Below, one piece after another: positions 13,727 through 25,141 of a stretch of DNA of 25,141 nt. Position 1 is the first letter of the stretch. Each line of letters starts with the position of its first letter. Source of the stretch: a virus; the IMG/VR virus record IMGVR_UViG_3300017719_003791, positions 1 through 25,141 of that record. One strand, written 5' to 3'. A program made the position numbers and the translations under genes. The notes under the pieces were generated by a model. It had not been told where the DNA came from, made no database searches, and saw nothing but the letters and a program-made list of their open reading frames with translations.

Positions 13727-14665
13727 ATGGCAGTAGATGATATTATCACCGCAGCCCGTTATAATTTGTTACAAGCAAGAATTGCAACTATAATAGGCGA
13801 CCCAAGTGACGGCGAAGGTTACGGACAGCAACTAGAAAGCGATACCGTAGCTACAGGATCTACTGTTCGTGCTGTAGATATGGCAGGATTATATACAGAT
13901 ATGATCCGTGCTAGAAAACATCAAACAGGAAATATACCTAATACTATTAGTAGTATTGTGGCAGGCGACATTGTCGGTGATGACGATACTGCACCATACG
14001 ATACTACAAGTTTTACAGCGTTTGAAGAAGCTATGGAAGACATAGAATCTAACAAATATGATTTAAGTTTGTCTCAAGCAACTGTACAATCATTAGCTTC
14101 TGCAACACGTGGTCCAGGATGGAATAGTACAATATACCAAGAATTTAGTTTAAATTTTGTAGGCTATACAACTGAAAATGGAACAGCTATTTCAGCAGCC
14201 GATCATAGACGTGCATTTTTTAATGCAGGCGGTTCAGTTTATGTATCACCAAATCTAAGTGGCGGTTCAGGCAATAAAACAAAAGACTGGCGCAATTTGC
14301 TTTCAAATATTAGTCAAATAAGATTTACTCACGATGAAACAAACGCCTTTGCTGGCACCGGTAGTGCTATTGGTAATTATGACCTAACAACTAGTTATAA
14401 GCAGTTATTCATCAAACAAGCAGAACTATATCCAGTGTATAATGAAAACAATTTTAAACTATATGCAAAAAAATTATCAGACAGTGAAATACAGTTTAAA
14501 GTAGAACTAAATGATGACGATACTGGAGATAGAACAGGGCTAGGTGCTGCACAAGACGAATCAATTACTGGAACACTTGCAGTAGTAATACAAGTATTAC
14601 GTCCGAGTGGAACATCAGTAGATATACCGGCACCTGCTTATGTAGAAAGATCTGCATTTAATTAA
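13727..14665 (+). CDS. Structural protein, paralogous to the next gene, 312 aa
   Basis: AAGGA (13716-13720) lies 6 bases before the ATG. The protein starts 'AVDDIITAARYNLLQARIA' and has 'GYGQ' (31-34), 'RKHQTGN' (63-69), 'FEEAMEDIE', then a C-terminal half with 'HRRAFFNAGG', 'SPNLSGGSGNKTKDWRNLL', 'YNLTTSY'-like 'YDLTTSY', 'FKLYAKKLSDSEIQFKVEL' and 'VIQVLRP'. The next gene has the same blocks in the same order, so the two are clear paralogues. There are no catalytic motifs, cysteines or membrane segments. Proteins with this N-terminus occur among structural genes of marine T4-like phages. Position after three fibres suggests a tail or fibre-associated virion protein; the exact role is unknown. 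Confidence 0.75.
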   Translation: MAVDDIITAARYNLLQARIATIIGDPSDGEGYGQQLESDTVATGSTVRAVDMAGLYTDMIRARKHQTGNIPNTISSIVAGDIVGDDDTAPYDTTSFTAFEEAMEDIESNKYDLSLSQATVQSLASATRGPGWNSTIYQEFSLNFVGYTTENGTAISAADHRRAFFNAGGSVYVSPNLSGGSGNKTKDWRNLLSNISQIRFTHDETNAFAGTGSAIGNYDLTTSYKQLFIKQAELYPVYNENNFKLYAKKLSDSEIQFKVELNDDDTGDRTGLGAAQDESITGTLAVVIQVLRPSGTSVDIPAPAYVERSAFN

Positions 14666-14736: not shown

Positions 14737-15960
14737 GTGCCAACTACTACCCCAATTCTAGCAACAAGATTTAATAATCTTCAGTCGAGGATAGCAGCAA
14801 TCTACGGCCCGCCGTCAAGTGCTAGTTCGGCAACTGGTTATGGACAAACAGTTAGGTCTGGCCAAGTAGAAAGTTTTGATGCTACGTCACGAACATTTAA
14901 TGCTAGTACTAATGTAGATTATTCTTCAAACAGAATTACTATATCAGGGCATAATTTTGCCGAAGGCGGATTAGTTGAATATGATGCTAACGGAAATGAT
15001 CCTATAGTTGAAACTTTAATTGAAGACGCACATTATTATGTAAAAGTTATTAGTTCAAATGTTATAGAATTATACTTTGAATATGACGGTACAACTTTTT
15101 CTCGTGAAGTAGATTTATTAAGTGGTGCATCTGGAACACATATTTTAAATTATTATAATACAGATAAGATTAGCGCTGATGATTATTTTCAGTTATATGT
15201 AGATGTTGCTACTGCACGTATCCATCAAATCGGAAATGGATTTATAGTAGGAAATAGTGCTTTTATTGCAGCTGGCGATATTATTGAACTAAGTTATTTG
15301 ACTTTTATGGAAGGTGTAATGACACAAATAGAAGCAGATAAATTTTTAATTGCAGACCCCGGCCAAGTAATTTTAGAATCTTTAAAAGATGGTTCAAATT
15401 CTAGCATTGATTCAGTAAGGACATCACCCTGGAACGGTACAAGACGTCATGAATTTTCATTAAATTTTACTAGTACTGCTCAAGCACGAGGATTTTGGAA
15501 TAGTGCTGGCGAAATTAGAATTAATCCTAGCTTAACAGGCGGCTCAGGTCAAAAAACAGGCGACTGGAGATCAATTATTGGCGATACTAACGGAATTGGT
15601 TACCTAACGTTTTCAAGAACTGGCACTGCTAAAACAGGCCCCGGCGGATCAATTACATCAAGTATAACTCCGTACAATCTTACAAGTAGTTATCAAGTAG
15701 TCATGCAAATAAATGGCGCAAGTTATGGTAATAACAGATATAGATTGTATGCAAGAAAAGTTAGTAATACCGAGTATCGATTTAGATTAGAGTTTGCTGA
15801 TCTAGATAGCCCCGGCGGCTTCGGTATTGACGAAAACGTAAATGGCACTTTACGTAGTAATATTCAAATATACAGACCTAACGGAAATGTAGTTATCGGA
15901 GGCACTTCGTATAACACAGTTAGTTTTACTGCTACTGGACAAAACATACAAACTCTTTAA
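14737..15960 (+). CDS. Structural protein with inserted beta domain, paralogue of 13727-14665, 407 aa
   Basis: It has a GTG start with CGGAG at 14726-14730. Blocks shared with the 312-aa neighbour: 'ATRFNNLQSRIA' (9-20), 'GYGQ' (34-37), 'RIHQIGN' (161-167), 'FWNSAGEIRINPSLTGGSG', 'YNLTSSY', 'YRLYARKVSNTEYRFRLEF' and 'IQIYRPNG'. Between GYGQ and RIHQIGN this protein has about 95 residues the neighbour lacks (about 43-142). The insert carries 'NRITISGHNFAEGG', 'YYVKVISSNVIELYF' and 'GASGTHIL', a small beta module that recurs in large phage and surface proteins. It has no catalytic motif. It is separated from its neighbour by a 71-base gap holding promoter elements, and it is the last structural gene before the sugar/radical SAM block. 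A tail or fibre-associated role is likely; its precise function is unknown. Confidence 0.75.
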   Translation: MPTTTPILATRFNNLQSRIAAIYGPPSSASSATGYGQTVRSGQVESFDATSRTFNASTNVDYSSNRITISGHNFAEGGLVEYDANGNDPIVETLIEDAHYYVKVISSNVIELYFEYDGTTFSREVDLLSGASGTHILNYYNTDKISADDYFQLYVDVATARIHQIGNGFIVGNSAFIAAGDIIELSYLTFMEGVMTQIEADKFLIADPGQVILESLKDGSNSSIDSVRTSPWNGTRRHEFSLNFTSTAQARGFWNSAGEIRINPSLTGGSGQKTGDWRSIIGDTNGIGYLTFSRTGTAKTGPGGSITSSITPYNLTSSYQVVMQINGASYGNNRYRLYARKVSNTEYRFRLEFADLDSPGGFGIDENVNGTLRSNIQIYRPNGNVVIGGTSYNTVSFTATGQNIQTL

Positions 15961-16022: not shown

Positions 16023-16376
16023 ATGGACGAACGTCTTGCGAAAGCATTAGAATTTAGTAACTATATGGTTACTTTCAATAACAAAAAACAAATATTAAAG
16101 GAAAAGTTCAATTCAGATCTTTTATACTATATTCAAGGATCTCAATTTACTATTACAAAAGAATTAATTACATTTGTAGGGTTTCTTCTAGAAAAAGGTA
16201 ACACTACTGATATTGTACTTACAGATGATAATAATTATCCTATTCGAATTTCTGATCTTAATGATTTCTATGAGACTATAATAGACAATTATTTTTCTGC
16301 TACAAACGAATATCTTACAGAGTACGAAAAATTAAAATTAAATAGATCAGTTGAGTCAATGATAGATCATGAATAG
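16023..16376 (+). CDS. Small conserved-looking protein of unknown function, 117 aa
   Basis: It begins 'MDERLAKALEFSNYMVTFNN' and is alpha/beta-like, acidic at the C-terminus, with no cysteines, signal peptide or membrane segment. The central part has 'FVGFLLEKGN', 'IVLTDDNNYPIRI', then 'FYETIIDNYFSATNEYLTEYEKLK'. I recall similar short proteins in T4-like marine phages, always listed as hypothetical; I cannot name a function. It is the first gene after a strong sigma70-type promoter. Its stop is TAG immediately followed by TAA (16374-16379), and it overlaps the next gene by 8 bases, so the two are probably translated together. It could be a partner or regulator for the transferases downstream, but only its position suggests that. 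Confidence 0.72.
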   Translation: MDERLAKALEFSNYMVTFNNKKQILKEKFNSDLLYYIQGSQFTITKELITFVGFLLEKGNTTDIVLTDDNNYPIRISDLNDFYETIIDNYFSATNEYLTEYEKLKLNRSVESMIDHE

Positions 16377-17220
16377 TAATGGTATAGTTGTTTTTGCAAA
16401 CAACAATGATAAAATAGACTATGTAAAGCAGTGTATTGATCTTGCAAAACGAGCTAAAGAACATTTAGGATTACCTGTATCTATTATCACAGATTCTCCT
16501 GAATATGCTTATAATATAGGCAGCAATGTCTTTGATCAAATAATTACTGTAGGTACTAACTTAGATGCAGATTTGAGACGTTTTAAAGACGGCGCCCTAT
16601 CTGAGCATCGAACTCAGTTTAAAAATAATAACAGAGCTAAGATTTTTAGTTTAAGTCCTTATGACAATACACTATTATTAGATTCAGATGTTATAATTTG
16701 TAACGATCATTTTAAAAATGCATTTGAAAGTAATCAAGATTTTCTAATATATGACAATTCAAACGACCTTTCATCTTTTAGATCTCAAGAAGAATTTCAA
16801 TATGTAAGTGAAGCTAGTATAAAGTTTTACTGGGCAACTTGTGTATTTTTTAGAAAAAATAAAACAAATGAAATATTTTTTAATCTTGTAGATCACATAG
16901 AAGAGAATTTTTCACACTACTGTAAAGTTTATCAATTAAGAACAAACTTTTATAGAAATGATTTTGGATTTAGTATTGCAATTCATATAATGAACGGATT
17001 TCAAAAAGGTGAGTTTGCTGGTGCTATGCCTGGAAAATTTTATCATACTTTAGATACTGATTTATTATATAAGATTAAAGATAATTCTCTAGTGTTTCTT
17101 TTAGAAAAAGAAAATTATTTAGGTGAATATACTCTAGCAGAAACAAGTGATTTAACTGTACATGTTATGAATAAATTTAGTTTGATGCGAGAACTAGATA
17201 AGGAGACATACATTGACTAA
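16369..17220 (+). CDS. GT8-like glycosyltransferase, DxD motif, 283 aa
   Basis: The N-terminus 'GIVVFANNNDKIDYVKQCID' reads as a beta-alpha Rossmann-type nucleotide-sugar binding half. 'PYDNTLLLDSDVII' places a DxD metal/nucleotide-binding motif (D105-S-D107) at the end of a strand, as in GT-A fold enzymes such as GT8. A later 'WATCVFFRKN' (about 155-164) resembles the 'TGVxFFKK' strand of such enzymes. No membrane segment is present, so it is probably cytoplasmic. It is paralogous to the next gene, which has the same blocks in order. The start ATG overlaps the upstream stop by 8 bases and has no strong Shine-Dalgarno, which suggests coupling. The family is inferred from motifs; donor and acceptor are unknown. 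A non-catalytic GT-like role is possible. Confidence 0.68.
   Translation: MNSNGIVVFANNNDKIDYVKQCIDLAKRAKEHLGLPVSIITDSPEYAYNIGSNVFDQIITVGTNLDADLRRFKDGALSEHRTQFKNNNRAKIFSLSPYDNTLLLDSDVIICNDHFKNAFESNQDFLIYDNSNDLSSFRSQEEFQYVSEASIKFYWATCVFFRKNKTNEIFFNLVDHIEENFSHYCKVYQLRTNFYRNDFGFSIAIHIMNGFQKGEFAGAMPGKFYHTLDTDLLYKIKDNSLVFLLEKENYLGEYTLAETSDLTVHVMNKFSLMRELDKETYID
17201..17205 (+). promoter_or_regulatory. Ribosome binding site AGGAG deciding a TTG start
   Basis: AGGAG lies 7 bases before the TTG at 17213. The next in-frame ATG would remove the first beta strand ('GILVAAQNN') that aligns with the upstream paralogue, so TTG is the likely start. Confidence 0.6.
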
Positions 17221-18055
17221 AGGTATATTAGTCGCTGCTCAGAATAATGATACTGATAACTATGTAGAACAAGCATGTTTGCTCGCTATGAGTTTGTCAA
17301 TTACAAATAATTCTACGCCGATCAGCATTATGACAAATGACAAGATTCCGAAAGAATACAAAGGGTTATTTGATAAAATTATTCCTATACCTTGGGGCGA
17401 CATGTCAGAAAAAGAAGATTGGAAAATACAAAATAGATGGAAATTATATCATGTAACTCCGTATGACGAAACTATAGTTATGGATACTGATATGTTAATC
17501 TTACAAGATCTAACTAATTGGTGGAAAATGTTAGATAAGTATCCTTTATACTTTACTTCTCAGGTACAAACATATCGAGGAGAAGAAGTTACTTCTGACT
17601 ATTATAGAAAAACTTTTTTAAATAATGATTTGCCTAATTTATATACAGGATTTTATTATTTTAAAAAGAACAATTTATGTTTAGAATTTTTTGAATTATT
17701 AGAGCTTATAGTAAATAATTGGGAGCTATTTTATGAAAAATTTACTCCAAATAATTATCCTAAATGGTGTAGTATAGATGTAAGTGCTGCAATTGCCATT
17801 AAAATTATGGGAGTAGAACGTCATGTTACTAACAAAAATTTAACATATCCTACATTTACCCATATGAAACCGGCTGCACAAGATTGGTTTAATATTCCTG
17901 ATAGCTGGTTAGACAAAGTAGAAACATATGTAAATAAAGATTGTCAAGTTAGAATAGGCAATTGGCTTCAGTCCGGAATCTTTCATTACACAAATCCAGA
18001 CTTTGTCACAGAAGCAACTATATCAAAATTTAAGGCAAAATGCAATGTCGAATAA
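17213..18055 (+). CDS. GT8-like glycosyltransferase, DxD motif, second paralogue, 280 aa
   Basis: It starts at TTG with AGGAG upstream and overlaps the previous stop by 8 bases (TTGACTAA). The N-terminus 'GILVAAQNNDTDNYVEQAC' matches the first strand and helix of the upstream protein. 'PYDETIVMDTDMLI' carries the DxD motif (D91-T-D93), and 'NLYTGFYYFKKNN' (142-154) is the GT8-like strand after it. The last third has 'PTFTHMKPAAQDWF' and 'QSGIFHYTNPDFV'; the histidines there could fit the C-terminal metal-binding histidine of GT-A enzymes. It is soluble and probably cytoplasmic. Two tandem transferases suggest two consecutive sugar additions, or duplication with a changed substrate. The substrate is not visible from sequence. 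Confidence 0.72.
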   Translation: MTKGILVAAQNNDTDNYVEQACLLAMSLSITNNSTPISIMTNDKIPKEYKGLFDKIIPIPWGDMSEKEDWKIQNRWKLYHVTPYDETIVMDTDMLILQDLTNWWKMLDKYPLYFTSQVQTYRGEEVTSDYYRKTFLNNDLPNLYTGFYYFKKNNLCLEFFELLELIVNNWELFYEKFTPNNYPKWCSIDVSAAIAIKIMGVERHVTNKNLTYPTFTHMKPAAQDWFNIPDSWLDKVETYVNKDCQVRIGNWLQSGIFHYTNPDFVTEATISKFKAKCNVE

Positions 18056-18668
18056 AATGCAAACTTTGTCAGATCTAATTAAAGATACAAAATTAGACGA
18101 AAATGGCTATGTGTATTACGAAGCGGAAACAGGCAAAGTTAAACAAGTGGGTACCAATACTGATTCGGTGTATAACAAAATAGCTATTGAGCACGAATTG
18201 ATTGAAGACATATTGTCAGGTAAAGAACAAATGGAAGATTATATTGTTTTTTATAATATTGTTAAAAAAGACTGGATTTTTAAAAAGAAAACAGATAAGT
18301 CTCAGAAAGACGTACAATATACAGAATATTTCGAAATGCCGTATAGACAAGTTACAACTGAAACAACAGAAATAACAGAAGACATTCTTATAGTGCAGAA
18401 TGTAAAAGAACAAATATGGAAGTTGAAAATAGGTTATGATGCTATGAATGAAATAGGTGAGTATTCTCGCCGTAATTTAATTTTTAATGTAACAGAACCG
18501 TACGATCCTAATATATTATATGATAAATTAGAGTTTGACGTAGAAAATCTTACACGTAACGGATATGCAACGTTACCATTCCATTATCCATTTGAAATTA
18601 GCGGCGATGATATAAGTATTTTTACAAACAAAATGTTTAACACTTACATGTATGAGAAAGTTGTATAA
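18045..18668 (+). CDS. Unknown protein, 207 aa
   Basis: I choose the ATG at 18045 (preceded by AAGG at 18032-18035), which overlaps the previous gene by 11 bases. An upstream in-frame TTG at 18003 would add 14 residues but has no binding site. The protein is charged and soluble: 'MQTLSDLIKDTKLDENGYVYYE' leads a region rich in E, K and T ('TTETTEITEDILIVQNVKEQ'), and the C-terminal part has 'RRNLIFNVTEPYDPN' and 'FHYPFEISGDDISIF'. There is no recognised motif and no cysteine cluster. Its stop and the next start share one base (TAATG), so it belongs to the same translational unit as the transferases. It could be an accessory subunit or a modification target; neither can be shown. Confidence 0.7.
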   Translation: MSNKMQTLSDLIKDTKLDENGYVYYEAETGKVKQVGTNTDSVYNKIAIEHELIEDILSGKEQMEDYIVFYNIVKKDWIFKKKTDKSQKDVQYTEYFEMPYRQVTTETTEITEDILIVQNVKEQIWKLKIGYDAMNEIGEYSRRNLIFNVTEPYDPNILYDKLEFDVENLTRNGYATLPFHYPFEISGDDISIFTNKMFNTYMYEKVV

Positions 18669-19597
18669 TGAACAAGTTTAGAGTAACCGATTGTGATATC
18701 ATCTATCTTTCATATGACGAGCCAAATGCAGAAAAAAACTATGCAGATTTACTTACTAAAGTTCCGTGGGCAAAACGTGTTCATGGAGTAGAAGGATCTG
18801 ATGCAGCGCATAAAGCATGTGCTAATTTAAGTGACACAGATCGATTTATTACTATCGACGGTGATAATATTGTAGAACAATCTTTTATACAACAAGAGCT
18901 TGATTTAAGTGACCATCAACAGTTAGAAAATTGTGTTATTAGCTGGTGCGGCAAAAATGTTATTAACGGACTGTTGTACGGCAATGGCGGAATTAAATGT
19001 TGGCCTAAAGAATTTGTACTTAATATGAAGACACATGAAAATGCCGAGTCTGATAATCCACATGCCCAAGTAGATTTTTGTTGGGATGTACAGTACATAC
19101 AACAAAACAGTTGGTTCAGCACAGTTTATAATAACGATACTCCTTATCAAGCATGGCGAGCAGGATTTCGAGAAGGTTGCAAAATGTCTTTAGATAGAGG
19201 AGTAAAGCCTAAATCATCTAAAGAGTTCATTGACGGACATTGGAAAAATTTACATCGCTTATATATTTGGCTTATGATTGGATCGGATGTTAAGAACGGG
19301 CTATGGGCAATTCACGGAGCAAGAGAAGGTTTAAGAAAGACTATGCTTACGGATTGGGATTATTTAAATGTCCGTGATTTTGCTTACTTAACTAATATGT
19401 GGGAAAATGAATATAAATTTCTTAATGATGATAACTTAATTGAAAATATACAAAATATTGGCGATGACTTACTAGATAAATTAGGTGTTCCGATTGCCCA
19501 CAATCCTTTAGATCCAGAGCAAAGTAAGTTTTTTAAAGAAGTGTATCAAAATCCTAGTAGGAAAGCCGGTCAGCAGTTTGTAATAGATCCGGAATAA
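18668..19597 (+). CDS. Probable glycosyltransferase-like protein, DGD motif, 309 aa
   Basis: The ATG overlaps the preceding stop by one base (TAATG). 'DIIYLSYDEPNAEKNYADLL' at the start and 'RFITIDGDNIVEQSF' (59-73, DGD at 64-66) have the layout of a GT-A nucleotide-sugar domain: first strand, helix, then DxD at a strand end. 'ISWCGKNVINGLLYGNGGIK' and 'CWPKEFVLNM' follow. Family-2-like transferases of this appearance occur in T4-like marine phages, often listed as hypothetical. The C-terminal half ('GHWKNLHRLYIWLMIG', then acidic helices) is unrecognised. No membrane anchor is clear. It stands between the unknown protein and the radical SAM array, 4 bases from the latter, so it likely acts in the same pathway. 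The enzyme class is moderately supported, the substrate unknown. Confidence 0.66.
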   Translation: MNKFRVTDCDIIYLSYDEPNAEKNYADLLTKVPWAKRVHGVEGSDAAHKACANLSDTDRFITIDGDNIVEQSFIQQELDLSDHQQLENCVISWCGKNVINGLLYGNGGIKCWPKEFVLNMKTHENAESDNPHAQVDFCWDVQYIQQNSWFSTVYNNDTPYQAWRAGFREGCKMSLDRGVKPKSSKEFIDGHWKNLHRLYIWLMIGSDVKNGLWAIHGAREGLRKTMLTDWDYLNVRDFAYLTNMWENEYKFLNDDNLIENIQNIGDDLLDKLGVPIAHNPLDPEQSKFFKEVYQNPSRKAGQQFVIDPE

Positions 19598-19601
19598 AGT
19601 A

Positions 19602-20405
19602 ATGGAAAACTCAAAAACTTTTTGTGCTATGCCATTTATTAGTACTATGTTAAACACTGATGGTAAAATGCGTTATTGCTGTATTGCAAGCGGCTCAACA
19701 GCCTTTGCACGTAATGCAGATGGATCTCCTATGATGGTTGGCAAAAACAGTGTAGAAGATGCATGGAACAGTGAAGTTTTTAAAAATGCTAGAAAAGATA
19801 TGCTCAACGGTGTTCAAGTAGAAGCGTGTAAGCATTGTTACAAACAAGAAAGTATAGGCTTAGATAGTTTTAGAACTAGAATGACTGCTGAGTGGCAAAA
19901 TCGTTTAGGCCCAAAACTGTTTGATTTTATACAAAGTGCAGAAGATAACGATTACGAAGTAAAATTACCACCTGTGTATTTAGATCTTAGACTAGGAAAC
20001 TTGTGTAATCTTAAATGTCGTATGTGTAATCCGTTTAATAGCAGTCAAATTGCTAAAGAACACTTTAGCTCATACGAAAAAAGTGAAGAATACAAAGAAT
20101 TTTGGAATAACAACTGGGGACCAAATCCTACTTTCTTAAAAGACAGCGACTTAAATTTTGATAGTAACTTTTTATGGAATGAAATTATAGGGCTTATTCC
20201 AAATTTAAGTAAAGTTTATATGACCGGCGGCGAGCCTACTCTTATAAACAACAATTATAGATTTATGGAAGAAATAGTTGCAGCAGGATATCAAGATAAG
20301 ATTGAAATATTTTTTAATATCAATTGCACAAATGTAACTGATAAATTTTTAAGTCTAATTAGTAAGTTTTCTAACATAAAAATTAATTGCAGTCTAGACG
20401 GTTAG
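19602..20405 (+). CDS. Radical SAM protein 1 of the array, ends early at an in-frame TAG, 267 aa
   Basis: This is the first of five paralogues. The N-terminal twitch-like set is C8, C26-C27, C76 and C79; the radical SAM motif CNLKCRMC is at 135-142 (CxxxCxxC), and 'TGGEP' ends at 212, the usual SAM-binding strand. These would hold a [4Fe-4S] cluster that cleaves S-adenosylmethionine, and probably a second cluster at the N-terminal cysteines. The reading frame hits TAG at 20403-20405 right after 'INCSLDG', in the middle of the TIM barrel, so the product would lack the last barrel strands and the C-terminal 'LDKxR' tail found in its relatives. The same frame stays open for 161 codons beyond. 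As written it is probably inactive unless the TAG is read through or is a sequencing error. The ATG is 4 bases after the upstream gene, with CCGGA (19589-19593) before it. Confidence 0.8.
   Translation: MENSKTFCAMPFISTMLNTDGKMRYCCIASGSTAFARNADGSPMMVGKNSVEDAWNSEVFKNARKDMLNGVQVEACKHCYKQESIGLDSFRTRMTAEWQNRLGPKLFDFIQSAEDNDYEVKLPPVYLDLRLGNLCNLKCRMCNPFNSSQIAKEHFSSYEKSEEYKEFWNNNWGPNPTFLKDSDLNFDSNFLWNEIIGLIPNLSKVYMTGGEPTLINNNYRFMEEIVAAGYQDKIEIFFNINCTNVTDKFLSLISKFSNIKINCSLDG
20403..20405 (+). other. In-frame amber codon splitting a radical SAM gene
   Basis: TAG stands at codon 268, between 'SLDG' and 'QKVND'. In the paralogues the same place reads DGT, DGI and DAW. Both flanks stay in one frame, so this is a single codon change, not a frameshift. 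Nonsense mutation, base-call error and amber suppression are all possible. Confidence 0.85.
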
Positions 20406-20891
20406 CAAAAAGTAAATGATTGTATACGCTCGCCTAGCGGATGGGAAAAAATTGATGAAAACTTTCAAAAGATTGCACAACTAAAAAATGTTAATCTAGA
20501 CGTTTCGCCAGTTGTACAAACTTATAATGTTTTAGATTGTCATAATATGCTATATTATGTAGATTCTATTAGTGAAAAATACGACAGGCCAATTGGCATT
20601 GACTATTTGATAAACGATCATCCGTTTTACTTAGATGTAACAATACTACCGCAGCATATTAGAGAAAAGGCTGCACTTAATTTAGAGTCGTATCAAGGTA
20701 AGCTATTAAATGAACCGAGAATTAAAACTACAATTCAGGGCATCATTAATCTAATGCGCAAAGAACAGCATCAAGATCATGAAACACTAATGAAAAACTT
20801 TTTAAATTACACTCGTATGCTAGACAAGACTAGAAACGAAAGTTTTAAAGATGCTATTCCTGAACTTGCAAAGGAACTAGGCGTTGAATAA
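20406..20891 (+). pseudogene. C-terminal remainder of radical SAM protein 1 after the TAG
   Basis: 161 in-frame codons follow the TAG. They begin 'QKVNDCIRSPSGWEKIDENF', which matches the radical SAM paralogues after their 'DG' ('EEVNNYCRFPSNWDSVSKNF', 'GKHHDYVRYPADWNVIQENL'), and end with 'LDKTRNESFKDAIPEL', the C-terminal tail shared by the array. This part therefore belongs to the gene starting at 19602. There is an in-frame ATG at 20547 without a binding site, so separate translation is unlikely. Its conservation means the break is recent, or is bypassed, or is an error. Confidence 0.75.
20871..20875 (+). promoter_or_regulatory. Ribosome binding site AAGGA deciding a TTG start
   Basis: AAGGA lies 8 bases before the TTG at 20884. 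The next in-frame ATG is at codon 55, which would remove the conserved C6 and C24-C25, so TTG is the likely start. Confidence 0.6.
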
Positions 20892-22005
20892 GACTATTTG
20901 TTCATATCCTTTTTTTGCAGCAGCTATTAGGCCAAACGGCTTAACAATACCCTGCTGTAGATATCCTCATATTGACGAAGAAGATAGCTATGTTTGGAAT
21001 GATCGTGTGCGTAACACAGAACATTGGAAAGACATTAGAGATAAAATGCTATCTGGAGAATCTGTAGAAGGTTGTCACGGTTGCTATCAAGATGAGCGCA
21101 ACGGCTTGCGCAGTATGAGACAGCACAGTCTTTCAAAATTTACACCTACTGAAAATAAAACTGTACCAGTACAACAATTAGAAGTAAGTTTTAGCAATCT
21201 ATGTAACTTAGCATGTGCGCATTGTAGTGGATTTTTTAGTAGTAAATGGCAAGCTGAAGATAAAAAAGCAAATAGAGTAGAAACAAAGGGATTTTTAAAA
21301 AATGACTTTGATTTTGAAAAGTGGGATTTATCAGATGTAACTGATCTAAAGATTATAGGCGGCGAGCCATTTATGGAAGGTGCTAAATTTAAGAAACTGT
21401 TACGTAGTTTAGATTTAACTAAAGTAAATTTACAAATTTGTACTAACGGAACCGTATTACCTGATCAAGAACTAAAAGATTTAATCGAACAATGTAATAA
21501 TGTATATTTGTGTGTAAGCATGGACGGTATATATACTGCAAACGATTGGTATAGATGGCCTTCTAAATTTGATGATTGTATTTCGATAATTAAAACATTT
21601 GAAGATTGGTGGCAACATAAAAGTAACGTGCATTTCATTATTCACACTGTAGTAAATTTAGTTAATGTATTAGAACTAGATAAATTGGTAGATTACATAC
21701 ACAATAATTTGCCTTTGTGGAAGGTAGAATGGGATTGGATTAGATGGCCGCATTGGCAACAACTAAGTTCGTTACCTAATAGTACCAAACATAATCTTAT
21801 AGAAAAATTTAATCGGTTGAATTTAGACTATAACTATGCTATAATTGATAATCCCTACAAAGTTACAATTGAAAGATTAAGTGAGGATCAAATAGATAGC
21901 TGGCAGCTAGTAAAAGAAAATATTAGTAGTCTAGATAAAGAACGAAACTTAAACTTTTTAGAAATGGTACCTTCTTTTAAAGAGATATGGAATTTAAATG
22001 ACTGA
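20884..22005 (+). CDS. Radical SAM protein 2 of the array, N-terminal twitch type, 373 aa
   Basis: It starts at TTG overlapping the previous stop by 8 bases (TTGAATAA). N-terminal cysteines are C6, C24-C25, C64 and C67; the radical SAM CxxxCxxC is 'CNLACAHC' at 107-114, and 'IIGGEP' ends at 162. 'CVSMDG' marks a later barrel strand. The C-terminal tail 'LDKERNLNFLEMVP' matches the other members. It is the shortest complete member (373 residues) and has the shortest spacer between the N-terminal CC and C-x2-C (38 residues). Known relatives are the twitch-domain radical SAM proteins of marine phages and bacteria, of unknown reaction. SPASM/twitch enzymes commonly modify peptides or sugars with an extra iron-sulfur cluster. 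The enzyme class is secure, the substrate unknown. Confidence 0.88.
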   Translation: MNKTICSYPFFAAAIRPNGLTIPCCRYPHIDEEDSYVWNDRVRNTEHWKDIRDKMLSGESVEGCHGCYQDERNGLRSMRQHSLSKFTPTENKTVPVQQLEVSFSNLCNLACAHCSGFFSSKWQAEDKKANRVETKGFLKNDFDFEKWDLSDVTDLKIIGGEPFMEGAKFKKLLRSLDLTKVNLQICTNGTVLPDQELKDLIEQCNNVYLCVSMDGIYTANDWYRWPSKFDDCISIIKTFEDWWQHKSNVHFIIHTVVNLVNVLELDKLVDYIHNNLPLWKVEWDWIRWPHWQQLSSLPNSTKHNLIEKFNRLNLDYNYAIIDNPYKVTIERLSEDQIDSWQLVKENISSLDKERNLNFLEMVPSFKEIWNLND

Positions 22006-23257
22006 ATCGAAAACATTTTGCGTTTTACCTTGGACACACATGGCTACATGGACTGACGGCAGTGCCTTACTATGCTGCGTTGCTAAGAACAGTTATAAGC
22101 ATAACTTAAACGATCAGACTGTAAGTGAAATATGGAACAGCGATCACTGGAAAGACGCTAGAAAAAAGATGCTGGCAGGTGAAAGAGTTTCTGCGTGTGA
22201 TCACTGCTATAAAGAAGAATCAGCAGGCATCCGCAGTCATCGTATTAATGAAAATGCATTATGGAAACGAGAACTAGGCGAAGATAAAATCAACAGTTTA
22301 GTTGAAGCTACACAAGAAGACGGCACACTCGAAGAAGATTTAGTAACACTAGACTTTAGATTAGGCAATACTTGTAATCTACAATGTGTGATGTGTAGGC
22401 CTCAAGACAGCAGTATGTGGTTAAATCCTGCTAAAAAACTAGCAGAAGAATTAAAGTCAGATGCAAAGTGGGATTGGAAGCACAAACTAGAAATTGATAC
22501 TACAAAGTTCGAATGGTATAAAAAAGAAAAACTATGGCAAGACTTTGAGCCTATGTTTGCAAACATACGTCATATGATTTTTGCCGGCGGAGAACCTCTG
22601 CTTATAAAAGAACATCATAGAATGTTACGAAAACTTGTAGAGACAGGACATAGTAAGCATATTAATCTAAGATATCATACAAACGGTACAGTATTGCCAG
22701 AAGAAGTATTAGAACTTTGGAAAGAGTTTGGATATGTAGAACTAATGATTAGTATGGATGCCTGGGGCAAGCATCATGATTATGTGAGATATCCGGCTGA
22801 CTGGAATGTTATACAAGAAAATCTAAATACATTAGATAATACACCTGATAATATCGAAGTAAAAATACTTTGCACAGTACATGCAATGAATATATTTTAT
22901 ATTCCAGACTTTGCTACATCGTTACTTGAACAAAACTTTAAAAAGATAGGTATAAGGCACCATAATGGATTATTCCATGCAGGAACAGTACATTGGCCAA
23001 GATATCTTTGTACGCAAATGTTTCCTAAAGAAATAAAAGATAAAATAAAAGACAAATGGGCCAGCTTAAAATTGCCCGACAACAAACAATGGAATGAAAA
23101 GATTTCTCATCAAATAGATTTTATGTATCAAGAAGACTTGTCGGAGTTATATCCACAATACCTAGATTATATCCAAGGTCTTGATAAGATTCGAAACACA
23201 AGTTTTCAAGATACATTTCCAGAGTTTCACAATATATTGGAGCAATATAATGGATAA
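21998..23257 (+). CDS. Radical SAM protein 3 of the array, N-terminal twitch type, 419 aa
   Basis: The ATG overlaps the previous TGA by 8 bases (ATGACTGA). Cysteines C8, C26-C27, C67 and C70 form the twitch-like set ('KTFCVLPWTHMATWTDG', then 'ACDHCYKEESAGIRSHR'). 'LDFRLGNTCNLQCVMC' gives CxxxCxxC at 126-133, and 'FAGGEPLL' ends its GGEP at 200. 'LMISMDAWG' is the later barrel strand, with Ala where the relatives have Gly after the Asp. The C-terminal tail is 'LDKIRNTSFQDTFPEF'. It is most like the first array member, also beginning 'SKTFC', which suggests these arose by duplication. It is a full-length, probably active, soluble iron-sulfur enzyme. The reaction cannot be named. Confidence 0.9.
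   Translation: MTESKTFCVLPWTHMATWTDGSALLCCVAKNSYKHNLNDQTVSEIWNSDHWKDARKKMLAGERVSACDHCYKEESAGIRSHRINENALWKRELGEDKINSLVEATQEDGTLEEDLVTLDFRLGNTCNLQCVMCRPQDSSMWLNPAKKLAEELKSDAKWDWKHKLEIDTTKFEWYKKEKLWQDFEPMFANIRHMIFAGGEPLLIKEHHRMLRKLVETGHSKHINLRYHTNGTVLPEEVLELWKEFGYVELMISMDAWGKHHDYVRYPADWNVIQENLNTLDNTPDNIEVKILCTVHAMNIFYIPDFATSLLEQNFKKIGIRHHNGLFHAGTVHWPRYLCTQMFPKEIKDKIKDKWASLKLPDNKQWNEKISHQIDFMYQEDLSELYPQYLDYIQGLDKIRNTSFQDTFPEFHNILEQYNG
23239..23242 (+). promoter_or_regulatory. Ribosome binding site GGAG deciding the start of radical SAM 4
   Basis: TTGGAG (23237-23242) is 7 bases before the ATG at 23250. This favours that ATG over an in-frame TTG at 23181, which would add 23 residues entirely within the upstream gene and has no such site. 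Confidence 0.6.
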
Positions 23258-24593
23258 GATAGATAAGTTACGTAAAGAAATAATCGAAAGTGATACTTTT
23301 TGTTTTTATCCTTTTTTAGAACTAAGCACTAATCCTGCAGGACATGTAAAACCTTGCTGCTATTATGCTGATACATTAAAACCAGAACTTGATAGTAAAG
23401 TTGAAGATCAATATGTACTTTCAAATGATAACACATTTGAAGAAGTTTGGAATAGCAATAGTTTAAAAGATATTAGAACTAAAATGCACAACGGTGAAAA
23501 GTTATCTGCGTGTGATATTTGTTATAGAGATGGTATTGCAAGTATGCGACAACGGTCTGTTAATGAATATAAAAATGATAGAGAAGTTTTGCATAGAGTA
23601 AGTGATGCTTTAGATAACAACGGACACTCTGATAAGACTCCAAAGAGATTAGAACTAAAGCCTAACAACTTGTGTAACTTAAAATGTGTAATGTGCAACA
23701 GTTATGACAGTAGTCAAATAGCAAAAGAATTAAAATCACTTGCAAAAACACACGGCGGAATTGAAGTTAGCACAGGAAGATTTGAAAAGATATCTGACAA
23801 GCCTGGTATAAATGAAAACAATGCAAATTTTGAAGGTATTGATGTTCCAGACTGGAGCGACAATGAAGAAATTTGGGATAGTTTCTGTAGAATATTACCC
23901 GGTGTTGATACACTAAGTTTTGCCGGAGGCGAACCACCGTTAATGCCTTGGGTACATAAAGCACTACAACGTGCAATTGATACCGGTGTTAGTAAAAACA
24001 TTTCAATTTATGTTGCATCAAACTTCACAAACATACATCAAAGTTTTCTAGACTTTATGCCACATTTTAAAAAGTTTGAACTTCTTGCTAGTATTGACGG
24101 CACAGAAGAAGTTAATAACTATTGTCGTTTTCCGAGCAACTGGGATTCAGTATCTAAGAACTTTATAAAAGCAAAATCATTTACAGAAAGTTCTAATATA
24201 AAACTTGTTACTAATATCACTGTTAATATGTTAAACGTTCTTAATTTAACAGATTTATTATATTGGATTGAAGAACGATCACAGGAATATCCCTATTATA
24301 AACAATGGCCTTATAATTTAAATGTTCTCAGTTTTCCAATGGGGCAACATGTAGGTAATTTATCAGATAATAATAAAAAACTAGCAATAGATAGATTAGA
24401 AGAATATAAGAGAAACTCATTAATACTTAAAGAGTTTCCTGACCTAACTCATAAAATTGATCTAGTAATACAAGAAATAAATCAACCTCGAAATGAATTT
24501 GAATATTTTAAATTTGTCGGTAGGGTAAATGTACTTGACAAGCATCGTAAAGTAAGTTACAAAGATTTTATTCCGGAGTTAGATTTAGAATGA
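23250..24593 (+). CDS. Radical SAM protein 4 of the array, N-terminal twitch type, 447 aa
   Basis: From the ATG at 23250, which overlaps the previous TAA by 8 bases (ATGGATAA). It has a 17-residue leader before its first cysteine. Twitch-like set: C18, C36-C37, C88 and C91 ('ACDICYRDG'). Radical SAM CxxxCxxC is 'CNLKCVMC' at 142-149; 'SFAGGEPPL' is the GGEP strand, and 'LLASIDGTEEVNNYCRFP' shows the intact form of the region where member 1 has TAG. The C-terminal tail is 'LDKHRKVSYKDFIPEL'. It is the longest complete member, with an extended segment between CxxxCxxC and GGEP. It shares 'DSSQIAKE' after the cluster with member 1 ('NSSQIAKE'). It is probably a soluble iron-sulfur enzyme; the substrate is unknown. 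Confidence 0.9.
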   Translation: MDKIDKLRKEIIESDTFCFYPFLELSTNPAGHVKPCCYYADTLKPELDSKVEDQYVLSNDNTFEEVWNSNSLKDIRTKMHNGEKLSACDICYRDGIASMRQRSVNEYKNDREVLHRVSDALDNNGHSDKTPKRLELKPNNLCNLKCVMCNSYDSSQIAKELKSLAKTHGGIEVSTGRFEKISDKPGINENNANFEGIDVPDWSDNEEIWDSFCRILPGVDTLSFAGGEPPLMPWVHKALQRAIDTGVSKNISIYVASNFTNIHQSFLDFMPHFKKFELLASIDGTEEVNNYCRFPSNWDSVSKNFIKAKSFTESSNIKLVTNITVNMLNVLNLTDLLYWIEERSQEYPYYKQWPYNLNVLSFPMGQHVGNLSDNNKKLAIDRLEEYKRNSLILKEFPDLTHKIDLVIQEINQPRNEFEYFKFVGRVNVLDKHRKVSYKDFIPELDLE

Positions 24594-25141
24594 CAACAAC
24601 TTTTTGTCCGTATGCATGGATTCATTTAAGTGCTGCTACTGATGGTAATATTAGACTTTGTTGTAATGTTACTGATTCAGATCCTCGGATAAAGGATAAT
24701 AATGGAGACAACATGCATGTCTCAGACATTAAAACTATTCAAGATGCATTTAATACTGACATGTATAAAGACATTAGAAAAAAGATGATTGCAGGAGAAA
24801 AAGTAGATTTGTGTCAGCGTTGTTATGATGTTGAAAACAACGGCGGTTGGAGCATAAGAAATAATGCAGTTAAACATTTTGGTATCGACGAATATGTTGA
24901 TAATACAGATAGTACAGGATATTCAAAAAATATAGAAATACGTAGTCTAGATTTTTCTTGGAGCAACTATTGCAATTTAAAATGTAAAATGTGCTCGCCT
25001 GATGCTACAAATCAATTGGTAGAAGAATTTATACACTTTGGCGAAAACTATCGTGATGTTGATTTAGACAAATGGACATTTGACGCTTTATACGATACAC
25101 TAGAAACAGTATCTCCTAACTTAAAAGAAATATTAGTTACA
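24590..25141 (+). CDS. Radical SAM protein 5 of the array, truncated by the window edge
   Basis: The ATG overlaps the previous TGA by 4 bases (ATGA), with GGAG at 24575-24578. 184 residues are visible. Twitch-like set: C6, C24-C25, C75 and C78 ('LCQRCYDVENNGGWSIR'); radical SAM CxxxCxxC is 'CNLKCKMC' at 128-135. The sequence ends 'LKEILVT', exactly where the relatives reach the GGEP strand, so that motif must lie just outside. It is clearly the fifth paralogue and open at the right edge. The array may continue beyond the window. Confidence 0.87.
   Translation, partial: MTTTFCPYAWIHLSAATDGNIRLCCNVTDSDPRIKDNNGDNMHVSDIKTIQDAFNTDMYKDIRKKMIAGEKVDLCQRCYDVENNGGWSIRNNAVKHFGIDEYVDNTDSTGYSKNIEIRSLDFSWSNYCNLKCKMCSPDATNQLVEEFIHFGENYRDVDLDKWTFDALYDTLETVSPNLKEILVT

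Follow-up and report, generated by a model that had tools for sequence, protein, structure and literature searches.

The genes for two GT8-like glycosyltransferases, GTa and GTb, lie in a gene block with the order F-e-GTa-GTb-h-D, which recurs in more than 200 IMG/VR loci (147 after deduplication, drawn from the best 80 matches per scan) and leads into an array of radical SAM genes. Judging from the sequences, the carriers are many uncultivated T4-type aquatic phages, in which the block lies near tail-fibre genes. Few features of this phage group are as regular as the block, yet when GTa, GTb, D, and e were searched by tblastn against 50,697 deposited phage records, nothing matched.

Gene layout and recurrence of the block

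The window, the whole stretch of DNA analyzed, is a 25-kb virus record (25,141 nucleotides) whose main genes, from position 2 to 25141, all lie on the + strand. Genes upstream of the block match phage structural and tail families. Closest to the block are two paralogues: F1 (13727-14665), a virion-type protein found with the profile of F2 (the o14737 family), and F2 (14737-15960), a fibre- or appendage-like structural protein directly 5' of the block with a weak PHROG baseplate wedge match (E = 3e-6). Two F copies usually precede e in relatives. Then follow e (16023-16376), a conserved 117-aa protein with a mean column identity of 62% across 30 relatives; GTa (16369-17220; 283 aa); GTb (17213-18055; 280 aa), with a TTG start behind AGGAG; h (18045-18668), whose start at 18045 was set from relatives; and D (18668-19597), a third DxD protein. 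The sequence-only reading had placed the transferase pair, this third DxD protein, and five radical SAM genes in one unit, and that layout stands, with every gene on the + strand. The T4 late promoter motif TATAAATA was not in excess over shuffles.

IMG/VR was scanned with GTb, GTa, and D, and each scan returned hundreds of relatives. From the best 80 kept per scan, a set of 241 loci was obtained (147 after duplicate removal). Among these best-80 loci, the order e-GTa-GTb-h was present in 225 of 241 and e-GTa-GTb-h-D in 209. A radical SAM gene followed D in 207 of these 209 loci, each of which had at least 500 bases downstream, and it lay within 100 bases in 170 of them. Where at least 8 kb of downstream sequence was available, a radical SAM gene was found in every case (84 loci). 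The proposed conserved unit with radical SAM genes was thus borne out by the relatives. The region downstream of D was highly variable, and the type and number of radical SAM genes varied freely relative to the transferases. The T4 portal family PF07230 was detected in 8 of 11 large records carrying the block; the window record, at 25 kb, is likewise only a fragment of a genome.

As these loci were picked for encoding GTa, GTb, or D, they cannot tell how often radical SAM genes occur without them. In an independent sample, 42 virus records of at least 30 kb were chosen by a DNA motif for CNLKCRMC, with the transferases ignored. All 42 contained proteins above the NF033640 cut-off; D was present in 25, GTb in 22, e in 21, and F in 17. 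The gene e was found in 21 of the 22 GTb-positive and none of the 20 GTb-negative records, and F in 17 and none, respectively; the records are fragments (one, G039, begins inside D), so the absence of a gene is weak evidence. The confinement of e and F to GTb-positive records suggests that the block is inherited whole; radical SAM arrays also exist without it.

The sequence-only reading had held that frequent radical SAM genes without transferases would speak against its proposal. This was found in part: 20 of the 42 records have radical SAM genes but no block, which makes the coupling one-sided, but three of these 20 (L404, L406, and L407) carried a different tandem pair, of GT7 type, directly upstream of the array. 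Several members of this pair contain a lectin-like domain. L404, L406, and L407 lack both GTb and D, and in L404 a gene resembling a tail sheath gene follows.

The transferase pair and its neighbours

As had been reported from the sequence, GTa and GTb are paralogues (26% BLASTP identity over 224 columns, E = 3e-13) with an 8-base overlap (17213-17220), and both contain the GI-V start, the PYD-x-T motif, and a DxD. A short overlap of a few bases was also seen in nearly all relatives compared. In a tree of 80 rows, GTa and GTb separated with 100/100 support, indicating that the duplication predates the group. The description "tandem duplicated" therefore holds in that the two are tandem paralogues, but the duplication itself is older than the whole group.

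In GTa, the DxD residues Asp105 and Asp107 were invariant across 41 relatives, and in GTb Asp93 was invariant and Asp91 conserved at 90% or more (39 relatives). A GTb profile built from 39 relatives matched glycogenin chains, which belong to GT8, at E values from 9e-7 to 2e-4 (best about 1e-6), and the match spanned the nucleotide-binding half. The GTa profile gave no significant match to glycogenin (E = 0.33), so that the link of GTa to GT8 runs via its paralogue. His217-Met218-Lys219 of GTb, invariant in the 39 relatives, lies in the right C-terminal region for the GT8 motif HxxGxxKPW; the full motif is absent, and His-Met-Lys may stand for it. GTa lacks this motif. Searches of Pfam, NCBIfam, and PHROGs gave neither protein a name, and GTb was above no Pfam cut-off. 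Profile and motif together support the earlier identification of the pair as probable DxD glycosyltransferases. GTb thus has the DxD and profile similarity in common with glycogenin-type GT8, from which the phage pair differs in consisting of two tandem enzymes.

D is strongly conserved (mean column identity of 68% in 40 relatives), has invariant Asp64 and Asp66, and is without a Pfam model. The best PDB folds for its AlphaFold2 model (pLDDT 88.9) were the S-glycosyltransferases SunS and ThuS (E = 3e-5), although at a TM of 0.34, an rmsd of 13.8, and 11-12% identity the overall SunS-type fold is not shared and the resemblance is GT-A-like only. Other GT-A enzymes were also matched (TM about 0.34), and the named viral fold matches were mostly glycosyltransferases. 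D is thus a predicted GT-A-like protein, with no closer assignment. Unlike in the SunS and ThuS systems, a glycocin peptide was not found here. D-family domains also occurred inside very large proteins (L413:5491-9246, 1252 aa; L412:14688-18032, 1115 aa), which shows the family to be a component of large multidomain proteins as well. The protein h evolves fast (17-45% identity in relatives) but has a conserved C-terminal motif. Its AlphaFold2 model (pLDDT 89) is mostly beta and had no match among PDB folds.

Pairwise-similarity matrices from 112 deduplicated loci were strongly correlated for GTa-GTb (0.70), GTa-h (0.73), GTb-h (0.65), and e-h (0.57), against permutation maxima of 0.12-0.20. 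Correlations of D with e, GTa, GTb, and h were weak (0.05-0.23; GTa-D 0.23, GTb-D 0.13), and those of the first radical SAM gene after D with e-GTa-GTb-h were 0.18-0.27 (87 loci, earlier run). These low values suggest that D and the radical SAM genes are separately exchanged parts. F gave correlations of 0.31-0.41 (GTa-F 0.41), and the same pattern was obtained inside the largest GTa group alone. The strong correlation of h and the weak one of F make h a more likely partner of the transferases than the fibre. The suggestion that the adjoining fibres are the acceptor accordingly lost ground, with h the better candidate. That e, GTa, GTb, and h are inherited together could, however, stem from close linkage rather than common function.

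The radical SAM array

Five radical SAM genes follow D: rS1 (19602-20891), rS2 (20884-22005), rS3 (21998-23257), rS4 (23250-24593), and rS5 (24590-25141), the last cut by the window end. The complete genes rS2, rS3, and rS4 scored 232, 399, and 302 bits against NF033640 (N_Twi_rSAM), above its curated cut-off of 170 bits. rS1 is broken by an in-frame TAG at 20403-20405, after which the frame is open to 20891; its N-terminal part passes the cut-off (235.9 bits), while the C-terminal part scored 54.5 bits. As a relative with 84% DNA identity (L208) is open at this position, the gene may have been broken recently, or the TAG may be an artefact of assembly. rS5 was assigned as N_Twi-type by motif only, from the N-terminal Cys pattern and CNLKCKMC. 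CxxxCxxC and the N-terminal Cys cluster were present in all five genes and invariant in a 30-member alignment, so that the complete genes agree with N_Twi_rSAM in both score and Cys pattern.

Many radical SAM proteins directly after D have SCHH in place of CC. A non-N_Twi kind was considered for the proteins at this position and rejected, as four of them pass the NF033640 cut-off. The name ahbD (heme synthesis), which has been applied to some viral SPASM genes (PMC9301287), was also rejected, as the scores reached 28-29 bits where 500 are required. Every peptide maturase model gave values far under its cut-off.

N_Twi proteins above the cut-off were rare in bacteria (3 of 398 genomes, from one phylum), and one of the three is a phage-bearing genome that had been used as the centre of the sample. 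In contrast, a phage record analyzed here can hold an array of as many as 17. This number of NF033640 matches was reached in the virus records of L271, L278, and L289 (G023, G028, and G032). The only named deposited isolates with a distant rS3 match (22-27% identity) were the Vibrio phages K566, K567, and VS1. The large N_Twi family, which has no assigned function, thus gains a recurrent genomic partner, and a guess at its substrate becomes testable.

Possible roles and published context

We tentatively favour an explanation in which soluble glycosylation takes place in the cytoplasm, on an acceptor that is linked to h or otherwise belongs to the virion, and in which D and the radical SAM enzymes provide variable tailoring. 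GTa and GTb would add successive sugars to one acceptor in the cytoplasm, most likely h or a virion protein to which h belongs, e would act as a helper, and D would attach one more sugar. An exchangeable set of radical SAM enzymes, together with sugar-nucleotide enzymes and SGNH proteins, would then modify the sugars or their carrier, and related phages would thereby differ in the final decoration. We infer the steps for e, h, D, and the radical SAM enzymes. As the block is missing from half of the records that carry radical SAM genes, these enzymes may have another purpose. The closest folds of the D model, those of protein or peptide S-glycosyltransferases, count weakly for soluble glycosylation. 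A more specific form of the proposal is that e-GTa-GTb-h is a dedicated protein-glycosylation unit with h as acceptor or adaptor, whose glycan is altered by an interchangeable radical SAM array, and that it decorates virions in hundreds of uncultivated T4-type phages; we regard this as rather unlikely in full. If the block does decorate virions, surface variation would be possible without change in the fibre gene. A precedent for virion glycans comes from mycobacteriophages, in which Freeman in 2023, as cited in PMC12619734, reportedly found glycans on capsid and tail tube proteins, but the hosts are unrelated and the transferases differ. To our knowledge, radical SAM enzymes have not been reported with mycobacteriophage virion glycosylation.

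Families encoded downstream in relatives included Ugd (UDP-glucose dehydrogenase), an epimerase, a DegT aminotransferase, and GDSL-type/SGNH proteins, which fits sugar chemistry. Ugd and epimerases are also typical of cell-surface polysaccharide pathways. By hydropathy scan, no window protein had a membrane-like segment, and such segments were found in 14 of 1300 downstream ORFs of at least 150 aa (a crude scan without a matched control). This scarcity favours a soluble acceptor and makes a self-contained lipid-linked assembly line with its own flippase unlikely.

The main rival of the soluble-acceptor reading is modification of the host surface, in which lipopolysaccharide or another glycan would be altered against superinfection and the radical SAM and sugar enzymes would supply unusual sugars. 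We consider this possible but doubtful. A host-surface change by GT8 enzymes against superinfection has been proposed by the authors who described the pelagimyophage island (PMC7029224), and the downstream Ugd, epimerase, aminotransferase, and GDSL-type genes would agree with it. However, the block encodes no membrane proteins, almost none are encoded downstream, and no Gtr-type flippase or lipid-linked transferase was found, so host lipid carriers would be needed; Gtr-type serotype conversion clusters have a membrane flippase and membrane transferases, of which the hydropathy scan showed none in the window. Host-surface modification also gives no role to e and h, which nevertheless co-evolve with the transferases. 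Less probable, and in our view unlikely, is modification of a peptide or protein by N_Twi enzymes acting like SPASM/twitch maturases, with the transferases glycosylating the same polypeptide. The N-terminal Cys cluster with CxxxCxxC, the weak peptide maturase scores, and the resemblance of the D fold to SunS and ThuS are consistent with this, but those scores are far under the cut-offs, no precursor peptide was identified, and the radical SAM genes vary freely in type and number relative to the transferases.

It is quite improbable that the radical SAM array has no functional relation to the transferases and that both are cargo sharing a hypervariable insertion site 3' of the tail-fibre genes. 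The variability of the downstream region, the absence of the block from 20 of 42 radical SAM records, and the low correlation of the first radical SAM gene with e-GTa-GTb-h would all be explained in this way. On the other hand, a radical SAM gene comes after D in 207 of 209 loci, in 170 of them no more than 100 bases away, and three block-less records have another tandem transferase pair right before the array. Phage glycosyltransferases are also known to glycosylate DNA (PMC12619734), and the present enzymes could do so while the radical SAM enzymes modify bases. This we hold to be very improbable indeed, as the block lies among tail-fibre genes rather than replication or nucleotide genes, sugar-nucleotide genes are found downstream in relatives, and no base-hypermodification gene was recognised among the families looked at.

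The sequence-only reading knew of no characterised pathway with this layout. Literature searches indeed gave no description of the six genes in their fixed order, of the families of D and h, or of the pattern of co-inheritance, but the setting has a partial precedent. In pelagimyophages, the hypervariable host-recognition island between VrlC and gp14 carries tail fibres together with GT8 transferases and cassettes of radical SAM genes (PMC7029224). T4-type phages, tail fibres, GT8, and radical SAM genes are common to both systems, whereas the account of that island does not mention the fixed e-GTa-GTb-h-D block. The phage collection that includes Pelagibacter phage HTVC008M had no match to GTa, GTb, D, or e, and HTVC008M had none to NF033640. 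The e profile likewise matched neither HTVC008M nor P-SSM2, both records being without a positive control. An enrichment in both GT8 and radical SAM genes has been described for some marine viromes (PMC7150976).
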